A stretch of 22,373 nt of DNA, taken from the IMG/VR virus record IMGVR_UViG_3300044846_001312, positions 1 to 22,373 of that record; one strand, given 5' to 3'. How positions within the stretch are numbered: the first letter of the stretch is position 1; each line of letters opens with the position of its first letter. A program made the position numbers and the translations under genes. Shown in pieces: positions 7,715-14,621 of the stretch. The notes under the pieces were generated by a model. It did no database searches. It was given only the letters and a program-made list of their open reading frames with translations, and was not told the DNA's origin. Source of the stretch: a virus.

Positions 7715-10200
7715 CGTGCTTGCGTATCCACAATGGGCATGAAACCGACAACGGTCGCCGGCAAGGGTTGATCGTTGACGTACATTTGATAGGCGTCGGT
7801 GGTGTAGCCGTCCGGCCAGGCAATATCCTTGTCGCCCGTAAATGGGGGGATTGGTTCATCCATCAGATCATCCGGACCTCGGAACAGGATTTCATCGAGG
7901 TTGTCTTCGTCTGGTCCGACTTTTCCGCCGACCGTGTTGATCAAGCGCACCATCCCCGTGTCGATTCGCTTGGTCTTGCCCTGCGACGTTCCATTGGCCG
8001 ATCCGCCCTCAAGTCGCATGGTCTTGATCTTGGCCGGACAGGGCAAGCCGAGATGGACATACCACGATGGAGAATCCAGCGTGACGGAGCCCGATGCGAC
8101 AACAACGGCCGAATGCGGCGAGCCGTCCGCCAGCACGTCAAGGGTTTCACCTTCGAGGTGATCCAGTCCGCTGATCGTGGATGCCGTGATGGCCCAGCCG
8201 CCTGATGCAATCGCTGTCAGCGAAGGCCACGCTGAGATAATCGTCGCGTGCACCACTGTTCCAGAATTGACGGCGGTGATCTCTGCCCGTGCGGTGTGAT
8301 AGACATCGGCGCTGTCCTGGTAGCGGTAGCGGATTTCCTTTCCGATATCACCCGAGACAAAGGCCGTACCGCCCGCTGTGAAGGCGACGGCTTCCGTGTC
8401 CACCACAGTGGCGCCCGTGCCCGGTGTCAGCGTTTGAGCGACTGATCCGTCATATGTCAGCCCGGAGTCGACATAGAAGGCGTTGATGATGTCTTCCTCG
8501 GCGTCCAGCGGAGGCTCCATATATTCGACATAGCGCACCGTGCCGCCGTTGATTGTTCTGCGCACGATCATCCAGAGTTCATCGGCGTCAGTGGCCGGGT
8601 TCGGAATAACCTCAATGGCTTCGACAATCCCATCGCCGCCAATCGGATGCCGGTGCCAGCCGAACCGGCGCTGGTTCACGTTCAGCGTGGTGGCGAACAG
8701 CAGACCATCAGAGCGCAGCACCCATACAATGGAATTCGGCTCCTGCTGGTAGGCAATGCTGATGATGGCCTTGCCCTTGGGCAACAGATGCCGGGCCAGT
8801 ACGGATAGATTCGTGGAGCGGTAGCCTTCGGTTTCCAGTGTGTAGGCGATGTCCCGCATCTTGCGACCGGAGCGCTGCACGAACAGCACCGAATCACCGA
8901 CTCGTGCAGGTTGAACAGACCTGGAACCGTAGGACGATTCCGGCTTCGATTTGGCGTTGCCGGGGCCGAATGCTTCGGTCGTGGTGATCTCGCGGATCGA
9001 GAATTCCCCGCCTGCGGTGCCGACCAGCAGCGAACCGGAAGGGGCGACCCATTCAATGCGGTTGACCTGGTCGCTGGTGACTTCAATGGTCAGGCCGGCA
9101 TCCTTGGTTACATCGCCACCGGTGTCCTTGTCGCGGAAATTCTCGAAGTCGCCGGACTGGCTGAACCAAAGCTCGCGCGTCGAGGCGCGGGCAAAGACCA
9201 GGCGCTCACGGAAAAATGTCACATGCGACGGCCAGCCCCGCGCGTCAGACCATGCACCCCGCGCCCAGCGGGTCGAGGCGTCGCCGCTGCCGACCGCGCC
9301 GTCCGGGATGCGCGATTGCACGGTAATAGTGGCCGATGCGCCACCGGAGGCGACCGCCGTAATCTTGCCGTGACCATAACCTGAATCGAGAAATTCCCAC
9401 TGCACCCCGGCATTTCCGTCGAAGATCGCGCCCGATGTGTGGGAAGGCTGTACCGTGCCCGTCGTGGCCGAGTTCAAGGCTTTGTAGTTACGATTCCCGG
9501 CGCGGCGCACGTCGTTGGCGTTGACCGCCTTGCTGGCCTCCCATGAGGCCGTGGTATCCGCCAGCTTCTGCTCCAGATAGAACAGCGTCCCGATGTCGTC
9601 GGCAGTGAAGGTGCCCGCTGTCGATGCGGTCAGCGTGACCGATGCCCCCGTGTTCGCACCAGCGTAGACGGTGACCGTCTCATCCGGATCAAGATCGACA
9701 AACGGCCCACCATCCGGCACAAACTCAGCAAGCGTCCACGCGAGCGCCCCTGTGCGGGTCAGTTTCTGCACCGGGTAAGTCTCGTCGACGTGCGTAATGT
9801 AGAGGACATCTCCAGACTGCACCGAGCGCAGCAGGAAATTCCCGTCAGCGTCAAACAGGTCGGCGGCGACCCAGGGCGTCGCCACCTCGAGTGGCGCGGA
9901 TCCATTCATCACAATGCCGTGATCGGTATAAAACCGCAGGTACTGGTCGCCGACTTCGAGGATATAGGCCTGCTCGATGTTGAACTCGAAGCGCAGCGTC
10001 CCGGTGCGATCGGTCATATCCTTGACCTCGCGCACAAAACGAGTCCCGCCCCGGCGCTCTGCCGGCCCTTCGATCAGCGGCATGAAGTTTTCAAGGCGCG
10101 AGCAGCCCGAGGCGTATTCCTCAAGCTCGACGCGAGCGCCAAACAGCGGGGAAAGTTCTCCGGAAGAAAACGAATTCAGCAGAGGGGCGGCTTTGGGCAT
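7711..10200 (-). CDS. Tail tubular protein B-like nozzle protein (T7 gp12-like)
   Basis: An 829-residue structural protein that would form the tail nozzle through which DNA leaves. The N-terminus is diagnostic: SFSSGELSPLFGARVELEEY, then CSRLENF and GPAERRGGTRFV, matching the 'GElsp...gR.dl..Y..g...l.N......G...rRpGt' signature of gp12-like proteins. Two beta-rich inserts with a GTFTADDIGTLFYLE or TAFVSGDIGKEIRYR pattern occur near residues 190-210 and 590-615; these resemble the modules databases label FCCH-like. Length is close to T7 gp12 (about 794). ATG 10200 overlaps the tail tubular A stop by one base (TGATG). The gene follows tubular A and precedes the Gp13-like gene, the T7 order. Confidence 0.85.
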   Translation of the reverse strand: MPKAAPLLNSFSSGELSPLFGARVELEEYASGCSRLENFMPLIEGPAERRGGTRFVREVKDMTDRTGTLRFEFNIEQAYILEVGDQYLRFYTDHGIVMNGSAPLEVATPWVAADLFDADGNFLLRSVQSGDVLYITHVDETYPVQKLTRTGALAWTLAEFVPDGGPFVDLDPDETVTVYAGANTGASVTLTASTAGTFTADDIGTLFYLEQKLADTTASWEASKAVNANDVRRAGNRNYKALNSATTGTVQPSHTSGAIFDGNAGVQWEFLDSGYGHGKITAVASGGASATITVQSRIPDGAVGSGDASTRWARGAWSDARGWPSHVTFFRERLVFARASTRELWFSQSGDFENFRDKDTGGDVTKDAGLTIEVTSDQVNRIEWVAPSGSLLVGTAGGEFSIREITTTEAFGPGNAKSKPESSYGSRSVQPARVGDSVLFVQRSGRKMRDIAYTLETEGYRSTNLSVLARHLLPKGKAIISIAYQQEPNSIVWVLRSDGLLFATTLNVNQRRFGWHRHPIGGDGIVEAIEVIPNPATDADELWMIVRRTINGGTVRYVEYMEPPLDAEEDIINAFYVDSGLTYDGSVAQTLTPGTGATVVDTEAVAFTAGGTAFVSGDIGKEIRYRYQDSADVYHTARAEITAVNSGTVVHATIISAWPSLTAIASGGWAITASTISGLDHLEGETLDVLADGSPHSAVVVASGSVTLDSPSWYVHLGLPCPAKIKTMRLEGGSANGTSQGKTKRIDTGMVRLINTVGGKVGPDEDNLDEILFRGPDDLMDEPIPPFTGDKDIAWPDGYTTDAYQMYVNDQPLPATVVGFMPIVDTQAR

Positions 10201-10802
10201 CAGTGCCTCGACAGCATCCAGGAGTCGTCCGGGATTTCTTCGGGCGGAAGTTCGATTGCGTTGGCGCGGATCGCCATGCGGATGGACGCCTTCAAGTCCT
10301 CGCGCAACGATTCCTTTTTCGTGTTTGATTGCGTGATGGCCTCGCAGCCATTGAAGGCCAGATCAATCGCCAGGGTCTCGGAAAACGCCGCATCGAATTC
10401 CCCGGTGTCCGTCACGCGCTTGATGTACCGAAGATAGAGCGGCGCCGTAAAGTCGGTGACGATGGTTCGCCCCTCGATCTTGTAGGGTTCCGAATCCGGA
10501 CCGCCCATCGAATCAGACAATCCGGGAACTTGCCATATGTCGTTAACCTGCACCACGCGCAAACAGTCGGTCGGGAGTTGGTAGGCCATCGTGTAGCCCC
10601 ATTCCGGCGCATCGGACAGGGCCGGGAGCGATTCGCGTTTCATGGCGAAAGACCAGTTGTAGACTCTCAAAAGGAAATCGCGGCGCAGTTCGTAGAGCGC
10701 ATTCATTTCCCGCGCTTCTTTCACGTTATCCGACAGCGACGTAATCCGCTTGGCGCCGAGCTTGGTCAGCGCGGAATTGACGATTGCGATGGAACTAGCC
10801 AT
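10200..10802 (-). CDS. Tail tubular protein A-like (T7 gp11-like)
   Basis: Tail gatekeeper protein of 200 residues (T7 gp11 is about 196), which would bridge the portal and nozzle. The start SSIAIVNSALTKLGAKRI, then SLSDNVKEAREMNALYE and LLRVYNWSFAMKRESL, is the classical pattern of this family. The reading frame extends upstream to 10985, but that extension overlaps the glycosyltransferase and is Cys/Arg-rich shadow sequence. The chosen ATG at 10802 has a perfect AAAGGAGG Shine-Dalgarno six bases away, one of the strongest in the window. It overlaps the glycosyltransferase stop by eight bases. In BPP-1/T7-like gene orders it would follow the capsid genes directly; here the sugar cassette lies between. 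Confidence 0.87.
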   Translation of the reverse strand: MASSIAIVNSALTKLGAKRITSLSDNVKEAREMNALYELRRDFLLRVYNWSFAMKRESLPALSDAPEWGYTMAYQLPTDCLRVVQVNDIWQVPGLSDSMGGPDSEPYKIEGRTIVTDFTAPLYLRYIKRVTDTGEFDAAFSETLAIDLAFNGCEAITQSNTKKESLREDLKASIRMAIRANAIELPPEEIPDDSWMLSRH

Positions 10803-11430
10803 TCCATACCTCCTTTGCCCATCCCCCTGCTTCGTGGGGGCGCGGCTTGCCGTGGAAACACACCACCCGCGCGCCTTCCGGCACGGCTTGGGTGCAATGG
10901 GTCTTGTAGGACACGAATGCGCCCGGATACAGGTCTTGCAGGATGTCGACCTGCTTGGGGAATCGCCCTTGATCGAGGTTTTCAAAGAACCCCTGATCGC
11001 CTCTCGGATCGGTCATCTGCTGACCGTTCGAGTCGAATTCTTCCCACAGGCCGAGGCTGTTGTCGGTGCGCCAGATCATGATCGCCGGGCCAAGTCCTTG
11101 CGGACGCCAGAAGTCGCGCAGCGTGGCGAATGGCCCGTCATAGCTGGCGATGTCGTCGATGTTGCCGAGGATGAACGTGTCCAGGTCGATGAACATCGCC
11201 CGGCCATCGGGGAACATGCCCGGCTTGAACAGGTGCAGCTTTTCCCACCAACCGGGCAGAAGCGCCGGCTTGCAGGTCATCCCCGGATAGAGGCTGGAGG
11301 CGTCGTCCGTGACCACATAGAATCGGTGTGGCAGGGTCAGATGCTGCTTGATCTGCCGGCGCAGTTTACGGACATACTCGGCGCCGCGGCCGCAATAATT
11401 GCCTGTCTGGACGACGACGACGCTCAACAT
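10795..11430 (-). CDS. Glycosyltransferase with DxD motif (GT8/GT-A-like)
   Basis: Soluble protein of 211 residues. The N-terminus is a beta strand (LSVVVVQTGNY), and residues 79-92 hold the metal and nucleotide-sugar motif AMFIDLDTFILGNI with D82-L-D84. Downstream are GDQGFFE (144-150) and HGKPRP (193-198), resembling the acidic 'DQ' and terminal 'H-x-G-x-x-K-P' elements of GT8-type retaining transferases. This family occurs in phages and rarely has an assigned substrate. No membrane segment is visible. I chose ATG 11430 (MLSVVVV) over the longer frame because it sits at the previous gene's stop (seven-base overlap) and the extension is low-quality shadow sequence. Third of three probable transferases in the cassette; the acceptor is unknown. 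Confidence 0.75.
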   Translation of the reverse strand: MLSVVVVQTGNYCGRGAEYVRKLRRQIKQHLTLPHRFYVVTDDASSLYPGMTCKPALLPGWWEKLHLFKPGMFPDGRAMFIDLDTFILGNIDDIASYDGPFATLRDFWRPQGLGPAIMIWRTDNSLGLWEEFDSNGQQMTDPRGDQGFFENLDQGRFPKQVDILQDLYPGAFVSYKTHCTQAVPEGARVVCFHGKPRPHEAGGWAKEVWNG

Positions 11431-12107
11431 GTGACCGCCCCCCATTTCTGACGGAACAGTTCGGCATTGCGTGCGAAGCCTTCCCCCGGCCATAGAATCG
11501 TGGCGTTGGTCTTCGGGTGCGTGACGACCAGATCGTCGCACACGTTGAAGATTGCGCCGGCTCGCGCCATGCGCCGGATGAAGTCTCGATCTTCATATCC
11601 AGCACCATCGCGATAGTCTTCATCGAAGCCACCGGCGCGCTCGAATAGCTCGCGTCGCATCATGCCCAGATAGGCGATGCCAGAACCATCAGGACAGTCG
11701 GGAACCTTCACGCTGCTGTGGCAGTGCCAGGCGCGCTGTTCAGGGCACCACGCCGCCGCCAGCACATATCCATTCGGCCCGATTTGATCGAGCCTCGCAG
11801 CCATTTCCTGCAACACTTGGCCTTTGTCGTGCAGCATCTCGATGCAGGACAGCACGATGATGTCGCCGGACGCGGCGGCTACTCCAGCATTCCATGCGAC
11901 CGATTGCGGGGTCGGGGCCGACTTCACGGGAAGTCGCACCACCTTGGTATTCAGGGTCAGCCGTGGCGGGATATAGGGGATCGGGTTGCCGTCGTCGACG
12001 ATCACCAGTTCAAGGTCGACACCTTCGTGGTACTGCTGGTCAAGCAGATAAAGCGCCTTGTCGGCGGCCGCGCGGCGCATCCAATAGGGAAGGATCAGCG
12101 AGATCAT
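11424..12107 (-). CDS. GT2-family glycosyltransferase
   Basis: A 227-residue GT-A-fold protein. The start MISLILPYW plus ELVIVDDGNP (34-42) is the nucleotide-binding beginning of family 2 transferases. WNAGVAAASGDIIVL (72-86) leads to the usual DxD position, which here reads SCIEML (87-92). Loss of the canonical DxD is also seen in a phage/LPS-type subgroup with an 'xNPEv' version, so it need not mean inactivity. GYEDRDFIRRM (170-180) is the conserved catalytic ED segment, and DDLVVTHPKT follows. It lacks membrane helices, unlike prophage GtrB enzymes. Starts at ATG 12107 in an ATGA overlap with the ketoisomerase gene. Donor and acceptor cannot be read from sequence. Confidence 0.82.
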   Translation of the reverse strand: MISLILPYWMRRAAADKALYLLDQQYHEGVDLELVIVDDGNPIPYIPPRLTLNTKVVRLPVKSAPTPQSVAWNAGVAAASGDIIVLSCIEMLHDKGQVLQEMAARLDQIGPNGYVLAAAWCPEQRAWHCHSSVKVPDCPDGSGIAYLGMMRRELFERAGGFDEDYRDGAGYEDRDFIRRMARAGAIFNVCDDLVVTHPKTNATILWPGEGFARNAELFRQKWGAVTC

Positions 12108-12478
12108 CGCGCCAGCCTCTTGAATTCGGCGAAGTCTCGGATGCAGTCGGTCTCGTCATGTTCAGCAGAAGCCAAGACCAGAACAACCGCATCCGGCGTG
12201 AATTCGTGCAGCTCCAGCCACTCAAGCGGATCGATCAAAAGCCCGGTGGTCGGATCGTCCATGCGAATATCGCGGTAGCCTTTCCGATCCCTGATCGTCA
12301 GACTGAAGCCGCCACAGATCGCAATCATCAATCGACGCAGTTCGCGGTGTGCATGGCCCCCGCGCGTGGCCTTCGGGTCAATGTGATGCAGGTAATAGAC
12401 GCGCTCGATGTCGAACGGCAACCGCTCGATCACGGTCAGGCTGCCGCGCGTGTCGGTGATGGTCTTGAGGTTCAACAT
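12104..12478 (-). CDS. FdtA/QdtA-like dTDP-sugar 3,4-ketoisomerase (cupin)
   Basis: A 124-residue single-domain cupin of the WxcM-like/FdtA family. These enzymes convert dTDP-4-keto-6-deoxyglucose to the 3-keto isomer on the way to 3-amino sugars such as Fuc3NAc and Qui3NAc. Seen: DTRGSLTVIERLPFDIERVYYL (9-30, quoted in two parts in the family pattern), the hallmark RGGHAHRELRR (39-49; H42 and H44 at the catalytic/cupin position), GGFSLTIRDRKG (56-67), and ASAEHDETDCIRDFAEF (103-119). The last matches the usual 'aS..Y.e.DYIR.y.eF' end, with Cys in place of the usual Tyr. ATG 12478 has GAGAGG eight bases upstream and a seven-base overlap with the previous gene. No dTDP-sugar synthase or aminotransferase lies nearby, so a substrate from the host is implied. 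Confidence 0.83.
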   Translation of the reverse strand: MLNLKTITDTRGSLTVIERLPFDIERVYYLHHIDPKATRGGHAHRELRRLMIAICGGFSLTIRDRKGYRDIRMDDPTTGLLIDPLEWLELHEFTPDAVVLVLASAEHDETDCIRDFAEFKRLAR

Positions 12479-13059
12479 TTGCCGTACCTCTCAATCCACG
12501 CCTTGGTGTTGCCTGAGAGCGATGTCACCCGCCCCTTGAATATCTGGCGGACGGCGCACTTCCATTCATTTTCTGTCGCCCGATCAACAAAGTCGGTCGA
12601 GTACCAGGGGGCGTCGAAGAAATGCCCGTCGCCAGTCATCGGCACGCCGGCCAGCACGATTTCGTCATAGCCGAGCAGCAGCCCGACATAGCAGGCGAAC
12701 AGGCCGGACGTTCCGCCCACCGCATCAATGTTCCACGTCACATCAATCCCGTCGCCGGATTTGTGCGAGTGGATCATCGGAGGTACGGCGTCGCCGTAGT
12801 TGTGGCCCAGGCGGAACTTCTTCCACCCCGGCATGTATTCCTTGTGCAGCGTGACCCAATGCCGGATGCGCTCATGCAGATACGCGCCGACATCATTGAC
12901 GGCCATGATTTCACCCTTCCACGGGCGCACCTTGGCGTAGTCATCCCAAACAGTGCGGCCACCGCCGATCACCAGCAGAGGCCCGGAAAACCGCCCGCAG
13001 CGGGAAGGGATTTCTCCCCTCCCGCCGAGAGCGCGCCAGAGGTCTGGCAGATCGGACAT
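12472..13059 (-). CDS. DUF115/GT42-like Rossmann-fold protein
   Basis: A 195-residue phage protein with nucleotide-binding features. LLVIGGGRTVWDDY (28-41) is a strand-turn-helix with a glycine-rich loop. IMAVNDVGAYL (51-61) and HWVTLHKEYMPGW (67-79) follow. VGGTSGLFACYVGLLLGYDE (114-133) then IVLAGVPM and GHFF (145-148) resemble the 'TSGvym..AialGykeIylsGiDf...H.F' signature shared by GT42 sialyltransferases and the DUF115/MptE superfamily. I infer a sugar-nucleotide or nucleotide-binding enzyme, perhaps a transferase; no activity is proven. ATG 13059 overlaps the cement gene stop by one base (TGATG) and lacks a strong Shine-Dalgarno, so reinitiation is likely. First gene of the sugar cassette. 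Confidence 0.6.
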   Translation of the reverse strand: MSDLPDLWRALGGRGEIPSRCGRFSGPLLVIGGGRTVWDDYAKVRPWKGEIMAVNDVGAYLHERIRHWVTLHKEYMPGWKKFRLGHNYGDAVPPMIHSHKSGDGIDVTWNIDAVGGTSGLFACYVGLLLGYDEIVLAGVPMTGDGHFFDAPWYSTDFVDRATENEWKCAVRQIFKGRVTSLSGNTKAWIERYGKC

Positions 13060-13568
13060 CAGGTGCCTGCGACGTAGCGAGTACGCAGCGAGACGGTGCC
13101 CGCGCCGCTGCCCACGGTGTCACCCGTGAAGCAGATGTCGTACCAGCAGTTCGGATCAGCCGACAGACCGGCGTTCTGCCAAACGGCTTCCTCGATGTCT
13201 TCGACGCCGACCGCCGAACTGCCCTCGAACAGCAGCTCAGTCCCGGTCAATGATGCGGAGACCAGGGTGATATTGTCCGCGTAGGCGTTGGCGTCGACCA
13301 CCGCGCCGCCATCTTCTGCTGTGGCATACAAGCCCACATCGAAGACAGCGCCCGAAGTGATGGCGTCGTTGAACAGCGAAAGCTGGCTGATGCGCCAGGA
13401 CGAATGCACCCGCGCCAGACGGTAAACGCTACCGTCCGCGTCGGCTGCGGCGATCTCAACCGTCCCCACCTGCTCGCGGAGAACGGCGCCCATGACATTG
13501 AGCGAGTTCGCAACGGGAGGCGTGGCGTCGAGGTTGGTGACCAGATTGGTCTTGGTGTTGGCTACCAT
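13059..13568 (-). CDS. Probable capsid cement/decoration protein (Bbp16-like position)
   Basis: A 169-residue protein, beta-rich and without Cys clusters or membrane segments, directly after the major capsid gene. In Bordetella phage BPP-1 the gene beside the major capsid gene (bbp17) encodes cement protein Bbp16, a jelly-roll protein that stabilises the shell; the same position here is the main basis for the call. Visible sequence includes an N-terminal arm (residues 1-30), SWRISQLSLFNDAITSGAVF, then DVGLYATAEDGGAV, consistent with beta strands facing a shell. ATG 13568 has a strong AAAGGAGA Shine-Dalgarno five bases away, expected for an abundant product. The 33 bases between capsid stop and this start contain only that site. 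Confidence 0.62.
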   Translation of the reverse strand: MVANTKTNLVTNLDATPPVANSLNVMGAVLREQVGTVEIAAADADGSVYRLARVHSSWRISQLSLFNDAITSGAVFDVGLYATAEDGGAVVDANAYADNITLVSASLTGTELLFEGSSAVGVEDIEEAVWQNAGLSADPNCWYDICFTGDTVGSGAGTVSLRTRYVAGT

Positions 13569-13601: not shown

Positions 13602-14441
13602 TCAGACGTAGCTGATCTCGACGACGCCGGCATCCTCGACGCGGGTCGCGCCGATATCCATCTCGACGAAAACCTGCGTTGAGTAGTTCTTGTCGGCGCG
13701 CTCGCTGATGCGGACAACCGGCTCGGCACCCACCGCCAGAACAACCGCGTTCTTGGCGTAGACGAACGCCTTGAGCGCAGTGACTTGCGTCGAGACGATG
13801 AACTTGAAGCCGAGGAAGGTGTCGATCTGGCCCTGCACCAGCGCTTTGATGCTGTTGTAGTCGGACGAGGTGATTTCCGTCGCTGACAACAGATCGGTGA
13901 GGCCGGCCGGGTTGATCGCGCAGGTCAGCATGTCCGTGTCGACATCGGCCGCCAGCAGGATTTCACGGGCAGAACGAAGTTTCGCCACGGTCAGCGCCGC
14001 CGAAGCCGCCGCGATCTTCTGCGCGCTTGGCAATGCGACGGTCGTCGCGCCGGCCACACCGGAATAGGCGTTACCGGCCATCGCCGCGATCAATACCGCA
14101 TCCATCTTGCGGCCTGCCGCCATCGCCGCGTTCATGGCGTAGGGGCTGGTCGGGTCGATCAGGGTGCGAATCTTGTCGGCGTTGTCGATCAGGTCGGCAA
14201 AACGCGACGTGACCAGAGAAACACGGCGCCGGCTGTGCGGAGTGTCGATCTGCGGGGTGTCGTCATGGCGCGAAGTGGCATCGACCATATCGACGGCGCC
14301 GATACGTTCGAAGTAAGCATTCTTGCCGGTGACTTGCTCGCTGCGGACGGAGCCGCGGAGCTTGGAACCCTTCTGCTGCGAGAGCATCAGGACGTTTGAC
14401 TTGTACTGTTCGACCATTGCGGTCGTGATTTGCGTGGACAT
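13602..14441 (-). CDS. Major capsid protein
   Basis: A 279-residue capsid subunit. Position after the scaffold and sequence features support the call: TGKNAYFERIGAVDMVD near residue 40, SRFADLIDNADKIRTLIDPT near 80-100, an Ala-rich helix (AAAGR to AAMAG), and a C-terminal RADKNYSTQVFVEMDIGATR, then EDAGVVEISYV. These are shared by the capsid family of BPP-1-like and related podoviruses (variant HK97 fold). The frame opens at a TTG five codons earlier, but ATG 14441 has GGAGG eight bases upstream (GGAGGACTACACC) and is the better start. It is preceded by the largest noncoding stretch in the window, which may raise its expression independently. Confidence 0.85.
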   Translation of the reverse strand: MSTQITTAMVEQYKSNVLMLSQQKGSKLRGSVRSEQVTGKNAYFERIGAVDMVDATSRHDDTPQIDTPHSRRRVSLVTSRFADLIDNADKIRTLIDPTSPYAMNAAMAAGRKMDAVLIAAMAGNAYSGVAGATTVALPSAQKIAAASAALTVAKLRSAREILLAADVDTDMLTCAINPAGLTDLLSATEITSSDYNSIKALVQGQIDTFLGFKFIVSTQVTALKAFVYAKNAVVLAVGAEPVVRISERADKNYSTQVFVEMDIGATRVEDAGVVEISYV

Positions 14442-14621
14442 GGTGTAGTCCTCCAAAAAGTTGAAAAGCGACTCTTCGAAAGGCCTACCCGCCTGCGCGG
14501 AACCATTTCTAACCCTGTTGCGGTAGGGTCAATCCGGCAGTCTCTCCTGCTGTCTCGCGGACCTGATTCGGGTCAGGCTCCCCGCAATTCCGGCGCGCTC
14601 ATAACACGCCGTCCCACCCGA
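14442..14621 (-). promoter_or_regulatory. Structured noncoding leader upstream of the capsid gene
   Basis: The only long intergenic stretch (180 bases) in an otherwise overlapping gene array. On the minus strand it can form several short hairpins: CCTGA/TCAGG (14562-14577), GCAG/CTGC (14537-14550), ACCCT/AGGGT with a possible wobble extension (14512-14529) and CCGC/GCGG (14489-14500), followed by the capsid Shine-Dalgarno GGAGG. None has a T-run, so none is a classical terminator. The longest ATG-started frame I found inside is nine codons, without good context. It could be a 5' leader controlling capsid translation, an RNA-processing site or a promoter region. I do not recognise it as a named riboswitch. 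Confidence 0.5.
14506..14532 (-). promoter_or_regulatory. Weak sigma70-like promoter candidate before the capsid gene
   Basis: On the minus strand, TTGACC (14532-14527) is followed after 15 bases by TAGAAA (14511-14506). The -35 matches five of six consensus bases, the -10 four of six, but the spacer is short. The inverted repeat ACCCT/AGGGT falls on the -35 edge and spacer, so it could be an operator as easily as an RNA hairpin. A boost for capsid expression would make sense at this point. Chance occurrence is quite possible. Confidence 0.22.

Follow-up and report, generated by a model that had tools for sequence, protein, structure and literature searches.

The DNA analyzed here, referred to as the window, is a 22,373-bp IMG/VR virus record (IMGVR_UViG_3300044846_001312). 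It covers part of the genome of an HTVC010P-like podovirus, and the element of interest is a cassette of four overlapping sugar genes, G1 to G4, between the genes of a probable decoration (cement) protein and tail tubular protein A. On the minus strand, the genes were arranged in the order terminase large subunit, portal (PF12236), protease/scaffold-like protein, major capsid protein (MCP), decoration protein, G1, G2, G3, G4, tail tubular A, tail tubular B (phrog_376 match), and internal virion proteins. All four open reading frames (ORFs) described in an initial annotation were found at this place and on this strand (Table 1), and the tight coupling to the structural genes described there was confirmed. 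The overlaps were 1 nt between the decoration gene and G1 (TGATG), 7 nt between G1 and G2, 4 nt between G2 and G3 (ATGA), 7 nt between G3 and G4 (ATGTTGA), and 8 nt between G4 and tail tubular A, whose ribosome-binding site, AAAGGAGG, falls within G4. The start of G4 was placed at the ATG at 11430, which overlaps the G3 stop; the mechanical ORF begins at 11541.

Table 1. Genes of the cassette and its flanks in the window.
Feature	Coordinates	Strand	Description
G1	12472..13059	-	195 aa; GT42/MAF-fold (DUF115/MptE-like superfamily) putative glycosyltransferase
G2	12104..12478	-	124 aa; predicted FdtA/WxcM-type NDP-4-keto-6-deoxyhexose 3,4-ketoisomerase
G3	11424..12107	-	227 aa; GT2-like (GT-A) putative glycosyltransferase
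G4	10795..11430	-	211 aa; GT8-fold putative glycosyltransferase with DxD
Probable decoration (cement) protein	13059..13568	-	directly after MCP; own Shine-Dalgarno AAAGGAG
Major capsid protein (MCP)	13602..14441	-	PF19821 1.3e-77, phrog_3437; start taken as the ATG at 14441; the longest ORF begins at 14456
Tail tubular protein A	10200..10802	-	phrog_394 2.8e-56; conserved downstream flank

The four genes were under purifying selection (dN/dS of 0.12–0.27 against relatives), and close homologues occupied the same place in independent contigs; thus, the cassette is more than a chance arrangement. Its composition matched that of its neighbors (GC 58–61%, GC3 71–79%), and a recent import argued from composition was therefore rejected. 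As a scan of the window for promoter-like and terminator-like signals remained at chance level, the late expression assumed in the initial annotation would follow from the gene order. No stretch of membrane-helix strength was detected in the cassette proteins (top 19-residue Kyte–Doolittle mean, 1.67), in agreement with the soluble enzymes expected. Like gtrABC serotype-conversion clusters, the window carries phage-borne sugar transferases. However, its cassette showed no GtrA flippase or GtrB membrane glycosyltransferase (GT) by Pfam or hydrophobicity and sits among capsid and tail genes, so the distinction from such clusters drawn earlier holds.

The enzyme classes initially given for G1 to G4 (Rossmann/GT42-like, FdtA-like, GT2, and DxD GT) were supported by profile and fold matches. 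In the case of G2, the prediction of an FdtA-family 3,4-ketoisomerase was clear, with matches to PF05523 (9.4e-35; 119.7 bits against a cut-off of 23) and to FdtA 2pa7 (1e-26). Both active-site histidines of the RGxHAH motif (H42 and H44), which are Asn in 2pae and 2pak, were kept. FdtA and QdtA are presumably separated by Arg17/His97 versus Tyr17/Arg97; at these positions, G2 has the FdtA-like R11 and L88, which is like neither. Hence, G2 shares with the FdtA/QdtA dTDP-sugar 3,4-ketoisomerases the family, the catalytic histidines, and the FdtA-like Arg in D-x-R-G, while the W-[HR]-E-M position carries His in FdtA, Arg in QdtA, and Leu in G2. Unlike in FdtA/QdtA systems, no aminotransferase or acetyltransferase partner of G2 was found. 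The phage-made 3-amino sugar suggested initially was not upheld, as a search of eight related records, of which three are 38–42 kb long, revealed no DegT/DnrJ aminotransferase (PF01041). In the related records searched, which extend up to 42 kb and may be incomplete, no sugar-nucleotide transferase (PF00483) was found, and no epimerase/dehydratase (PF01370) except for the SDR of locus L002 described below.

G3 is GT2/GT7C-like by sequence, with a score just above the cut-off for PF02709 (23.7 bits against 23) and below it for PF00535 (9e-4; 19.6 bits against 23.3); NCBIfam GT models were matched at E-values down to 5e-9, under their cut-offs. G4 was assigned to phrog_1962 glycosyltransferase (6e-32), and its profile matched glycogenin at about 1e-5. 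The G4 model (pLDDT 75) resembled GlyE (Z 16.4, 3.2 Å over 193 residues) and glycogenin (Z 15.5), both of which are enzymes that glycosylate proteins, and the DxD motif, D82-L-D84, was invariant in 6 alignment rows. As the fold and the DxD motif fit but no Pfam (GT8) match was obtained at E<=1, G4 is labelled a predicted GT8-like glycosyltransferase. PmgQ of phage P1 (pmgQ; hdmD in P7), annotated with a putative morphogenetic function, is distantly related to G4.

For G1, an AF2 model of high confidence (pLDDT 93.8) matched the MAF glycosyltransferase 5mu5 (Z 11.9, 4.0 Å over 162 residues) and the GT42 sialyltransferase CstII (Z 11.1). MAF glycosylates flagellin. In Foldseek, GT42 sialyltransferases alone passed E<0.001 (E 2.8e-5), and they also ranked first in a profile search. 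H97, S118, and SxSGxT were invariant across 23 alignment rows. G1 shares with MAF flagellin GTs and GT42 sialyltransferases the fold and the motif TSG..A..LGY..I.LaG, and differs from them as a short single domain without a Pfam match at E<=1 (e.g., PF01973, which the MptE-like fused relative in L002, unlike G1, matched at 2e-18). Since this match is missing, the modelled G1 is described as fold-related to the GT42/MAF superfamily and not as a member. Sialyltransferase activity was considered and is not claimed, as the fold match leaves the donor unfixed.

A scan with the G1 profile gave 33 loci. In most of them, G1 lay between MCP plus decoration gene and tail tubular A (L082–L090, L092, and L100), with the right flank cut off in some, and a methyltransferase gene often adjoined G1 in loci after MCP/decoration. 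L094 and L102 had the same left flank as the MCP–decoration–G1 loci, and in L091, L093, and L095, G1 and GT genes preceded an apparent terminase gene. In the siphophage Pkon1, a G1 homologue overlapped the MCP stop. In the lambdoid Citrobacter phage phiNP (L138:5442-6627), a gene annotated as alpha-2,3-sialyltransferase (GT42) and, overlapping it by 11 nt, a downstream homologue of G4 preceded the terminase genes.

Collecting relatives by the capsid protein alone gave 61 related loci; the slot from MCP to tail tubular A could be read for 41 distinct capsid proteins. The slot contained no recognized sugar gene in 30 of the 41 and was usually filled by the decoration gene alone (about 550 bp). 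In the other 11, among them all six nearest to the window, sugar-type genes followed the decoration gene. This comparison bore out the earlier view of the cassette as a variable insert between conserved flanks. The slot contents were G1 and G4 in L003; G1, a small methyltransferase-like gene, G3, and G4 in L004 and L007; G1, a methyltransferase, and other GT-like genes in L019; and G1 with a methyltransferase-like gene in L023. L008 carried G1, G3, and G4 with a C-methyltransferase (PF08421/PF13489/PF08484) at the FdtA position. As enzymes of this type act on 4-keto-deoxysugar nucleotides, the same type of precursor would be tapped as by FdtA. The slot of L018 is in decay, its sole gene being a G1 cut to 94 aa by a large in-frame deletion (L018:3096-3380). 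G1 was the slot gene kept most often, and the others were swapped. Identity between near relatives and the window fell from 90–92% in the capsid protein to 58–63% in G3. The G3 of L002, an unrelated phage, was as close to that of the window (60%) as those of the near relatives, which is a sign of exchange.

The module was also found in a second podovirus lineage, which is distantly related to that of the window. L002 belongs to it, with a different MCP (phrog_9953) and a decoration protein matching phrog_29386 virion structural protein (1e-20). Its slot contained an SDR (PF02719, 5e-77), FdtA, and one 697-aa protein fusing GT2, G4, and MptE-like (PF01973) domains; L191 carried FdtA and a similar GT2–G4–MptE-like fusion without the SDR. 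In both, the genes occupied the same place, directly after the decoration gene. No carrier of the full module was found among cultured phages, since their FdtA relatives were few and distant, G1 had one match (Pkon1), and the fused GT gave partial matches only.

The relationship between decoration protein and GT genes in the second lineage was evaluated in 169 readable slots, obtained from MCP-only scans and from 21 loci of a G4 scan, which were chosen by GT and thus lean toward GT presence. Short decoration proteins (88–98 aa) were accompanied by a GT in 0 of 71 cases and long ones (158–196 aa) in 86–88 of 98. L206 was counted as long, and the range reflects L150 and L166, whose GT-family ORFs are present but escaped the threshold applied. 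Taken by itself, the first MCP-only scan gave 0/32 and 32/40, respectively (L171, L220, and L206 corrected by eye). The short protein aligns with the long protein over the N-terminal half of the latter (hhalign E 7e-7), so GT presence co-occurs with the C-terminal domain. On the MCP tree of this lineage, the decoration protein switches type at least 9 times, and the presence of a GT changes 12 times. Among 5 independent pairs on well-supported branches, GT presence changed in the same direction in 3.6 on average and never in the opposite direction (p 0.125).

Other genes were also observed in these slots. Genes of 124–136 aa without Pfam or PHROG match (L146:7578-7958 and related loci) occupied the slot of GT-less phages with long decoration proteins, and similar genes were found next to short decoration proteins as well as next to GT genes. 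HNH-type endonuclease-like genes were seen by eye between MCP and decoration gene (L142:7066-7521, L148:6683-7132, and L222:6006-6680). L167, L183, and L210 carried a four-gene variant with an MptE-like GT, an unassigned GT-like gene, a methyltransferase, and a GT8-like gene.

From the comparison with about 200 related phages, it is proposed, with a probability of about 0.6, that the phage enzymes glycosylate a virion protein. This part of the initial annotation, separated from the phage-made 3-amino sugar, is favored because the module recurs directly after the decoration gene in the second lineage and co-occurs there with the decoration C-terminal domain. Further support is provided by the position of the cassette within the capsid–tail operon with stop–start overlaps, the fold relationship of G1 to MAF/GT42 and of G4 to the protein-glycosylating GlyE and glycogenin, the FdtA histidines kept in G2, the C-methyltransferase at the FdtA position of L008, the presence of sugar genes after the decoration gene in 11 of the 41 relatives including the six nearest, and the G1 homologue overlapping the MCP stop in Pkon1. 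From this we infer a donor sugar, an acceptor, a linkage, a timing, and a benefit, which would be altered adsorption or shielding. The host would provide the sugar nucleotide, which is probably the Rml-pathway intermediate dTDP-4-keto-6-deoxyglucose, and G2 would move the keto group from C4 to C3, yielding an unusual 6-deoxyhexose that a host reductase or aminotransferase may complete. G1, G3, and G4 would then assemble a short glycan in the cytosol and attach it to a virion protein that the operon also encodes. The decoration protein, whose gene lies just upstream, is the likeliest acceptor, and capsid or tail proteins are possible. More tentatively, in at least two podovirus lineages the slot behind the decoration gene may shuffle GT and tailoring genes, so that C-terminal acceptor domains display varying unusual sugars as a coat-variation system, with acceptor domain and enzymes lost together. 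If virion glycosylation is correct, it would be common in environmental podoviruses, encoded in the capsid operon, and modular. The association with the decoration domain supplies a concrete candidate acceptor, and coat sugars could explain differences in adsorption, grazing, or shielding among near-identical phages.

Several observations weigh against this proposal. A short/long split of the decoration protein was looked for in the lineage of the window and none was seen. In the second lineage, the five independent pairs are too few for significance, and about ten long decoration proteins had no GT. Since the 3' end of the decoration gene adjoins the GT gene there, single deletions removing both are a plain alternative. 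No other enzymes of the sugar pathway were encoded in the records examined; thus, the host is needed for a usable product, and host metabolism must supply the starting point of the donor. Doubt also attaches to G1, which could instead have a regulatory or scaffold role as a nucleotide-binding protein with this fold. It has no Pfam match, and its model matched the non-GT proteins SteA (Z 11.6) and HPPK (Z 10.4) in a tie with MAF and CstII. The ranking of GT42 sialyltransferases in the Foldseek and profile searches, the presence of G1 among sugar genes in many loci, and the fusion of an MptE-like domain to GT2 and G4 in L002 and L191 leave very little probability for a G1 of this kind.

Instead of the virion, the enzymes may modify host surface glycans (lipopolysaccharide or exopolysaccharide) late in infection or in a lysogen, so that released virions do not re-bind debris or competitors are excluded. 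FdtA–GT2 pairs are known as typical of O-antigen and S-layer glycan loci, soluble cytosolic enzymes also build surface glycans, soluble GTs can act on lipid-linked precursors, and a close relative carries two neighboring integrase genes (L004 contig G002, 2338-4167), which make a temperate life style possible in the group. This explanation is considered unlikely, as the cassette contains no flippase, polymerase, lipid-carrier GT, or membrane helices, its location among late structural genes gives little time for surface remodeling, and in two lineages the module recurs right next to the decoration gene. The slot could also be a tolerant insertion site with cargo of varied functions unrelated to the virion. 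The cargo is indeed varied (GTs, methyltransferases, sulfotransferase-like and HNH genes), and L018 lost most of G1 in frame; however, it is overwhelmingly sugar-related, G1 persists as others swap, and purifying selection and the co-occurrence with decoration type make a cargo unrelated to the virion quite improbable. Next to no probability is given to a hypermodification of DNA bases by the phage GTs. No thymidylate-synthase-type enzyme was found in the window or six related records, the cassette sits with late structural genes, and ketoisomerases are not known to be part of DNA-glycosylation routes, although phage GTs that glycosylate DNA do exist, as cited in PMC12619734.

Virion glycosylation has precedents. 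Phage structural-protein glycosylation has been described as rarely identified (PMC5852040), and its clearest case is that of mycobacteriophages, for which PMC11256854 and PMC12619734, citing Freeman 2023, describe glycans on capsid and tail-tube proteins. Phage-encoded GTs are common to these Che8-type phages, with their glycan on major capsid and tail-tube proteins, and the window. The GT genes of the related phage Maravista lie near the genome 3' end, and those of the window lie inside the capsid–tail operon. The phages are unrelated, and the system of the window includes a sugar-tailoring gene and has the decoration protein as suspected acceptor. XacN1 also has virion glycoproteins (PMC5852040). 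Its ORF373 was G4-like across 27% of the fused-GT query, but the link is circumstantial, as PMC5852040 names ORF328 and ORF334 as GTs. No publication describing such a cassette within a capsid operon was found in the literature searched, whose scope excluded most subscription journals.

The neighbor upstream of G1 is probably a cement protein, because the sole PDB matches of its family profile at E<10 were two virion proteins, both marginal: 7eel_H, "Cement (decoration) proteins" (E 0.017), and 8h89_J, "Virion associated protein" (E 0.018). An MCP-based host search across bacterial genomes gave no match. The order portal–protease–MCP–decoration–tail tubular A–tail tubular B is common to the window and the HTVC010P group (MCP PF19821), but the slot of the cultured members inspected was without sugar genes, unlike that of the window phage. 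The MCP of the window shared 49–58% identity with its counterparts in cultured Pelagibacter phages of this group and 82–92% with those in the closest viral contigs.

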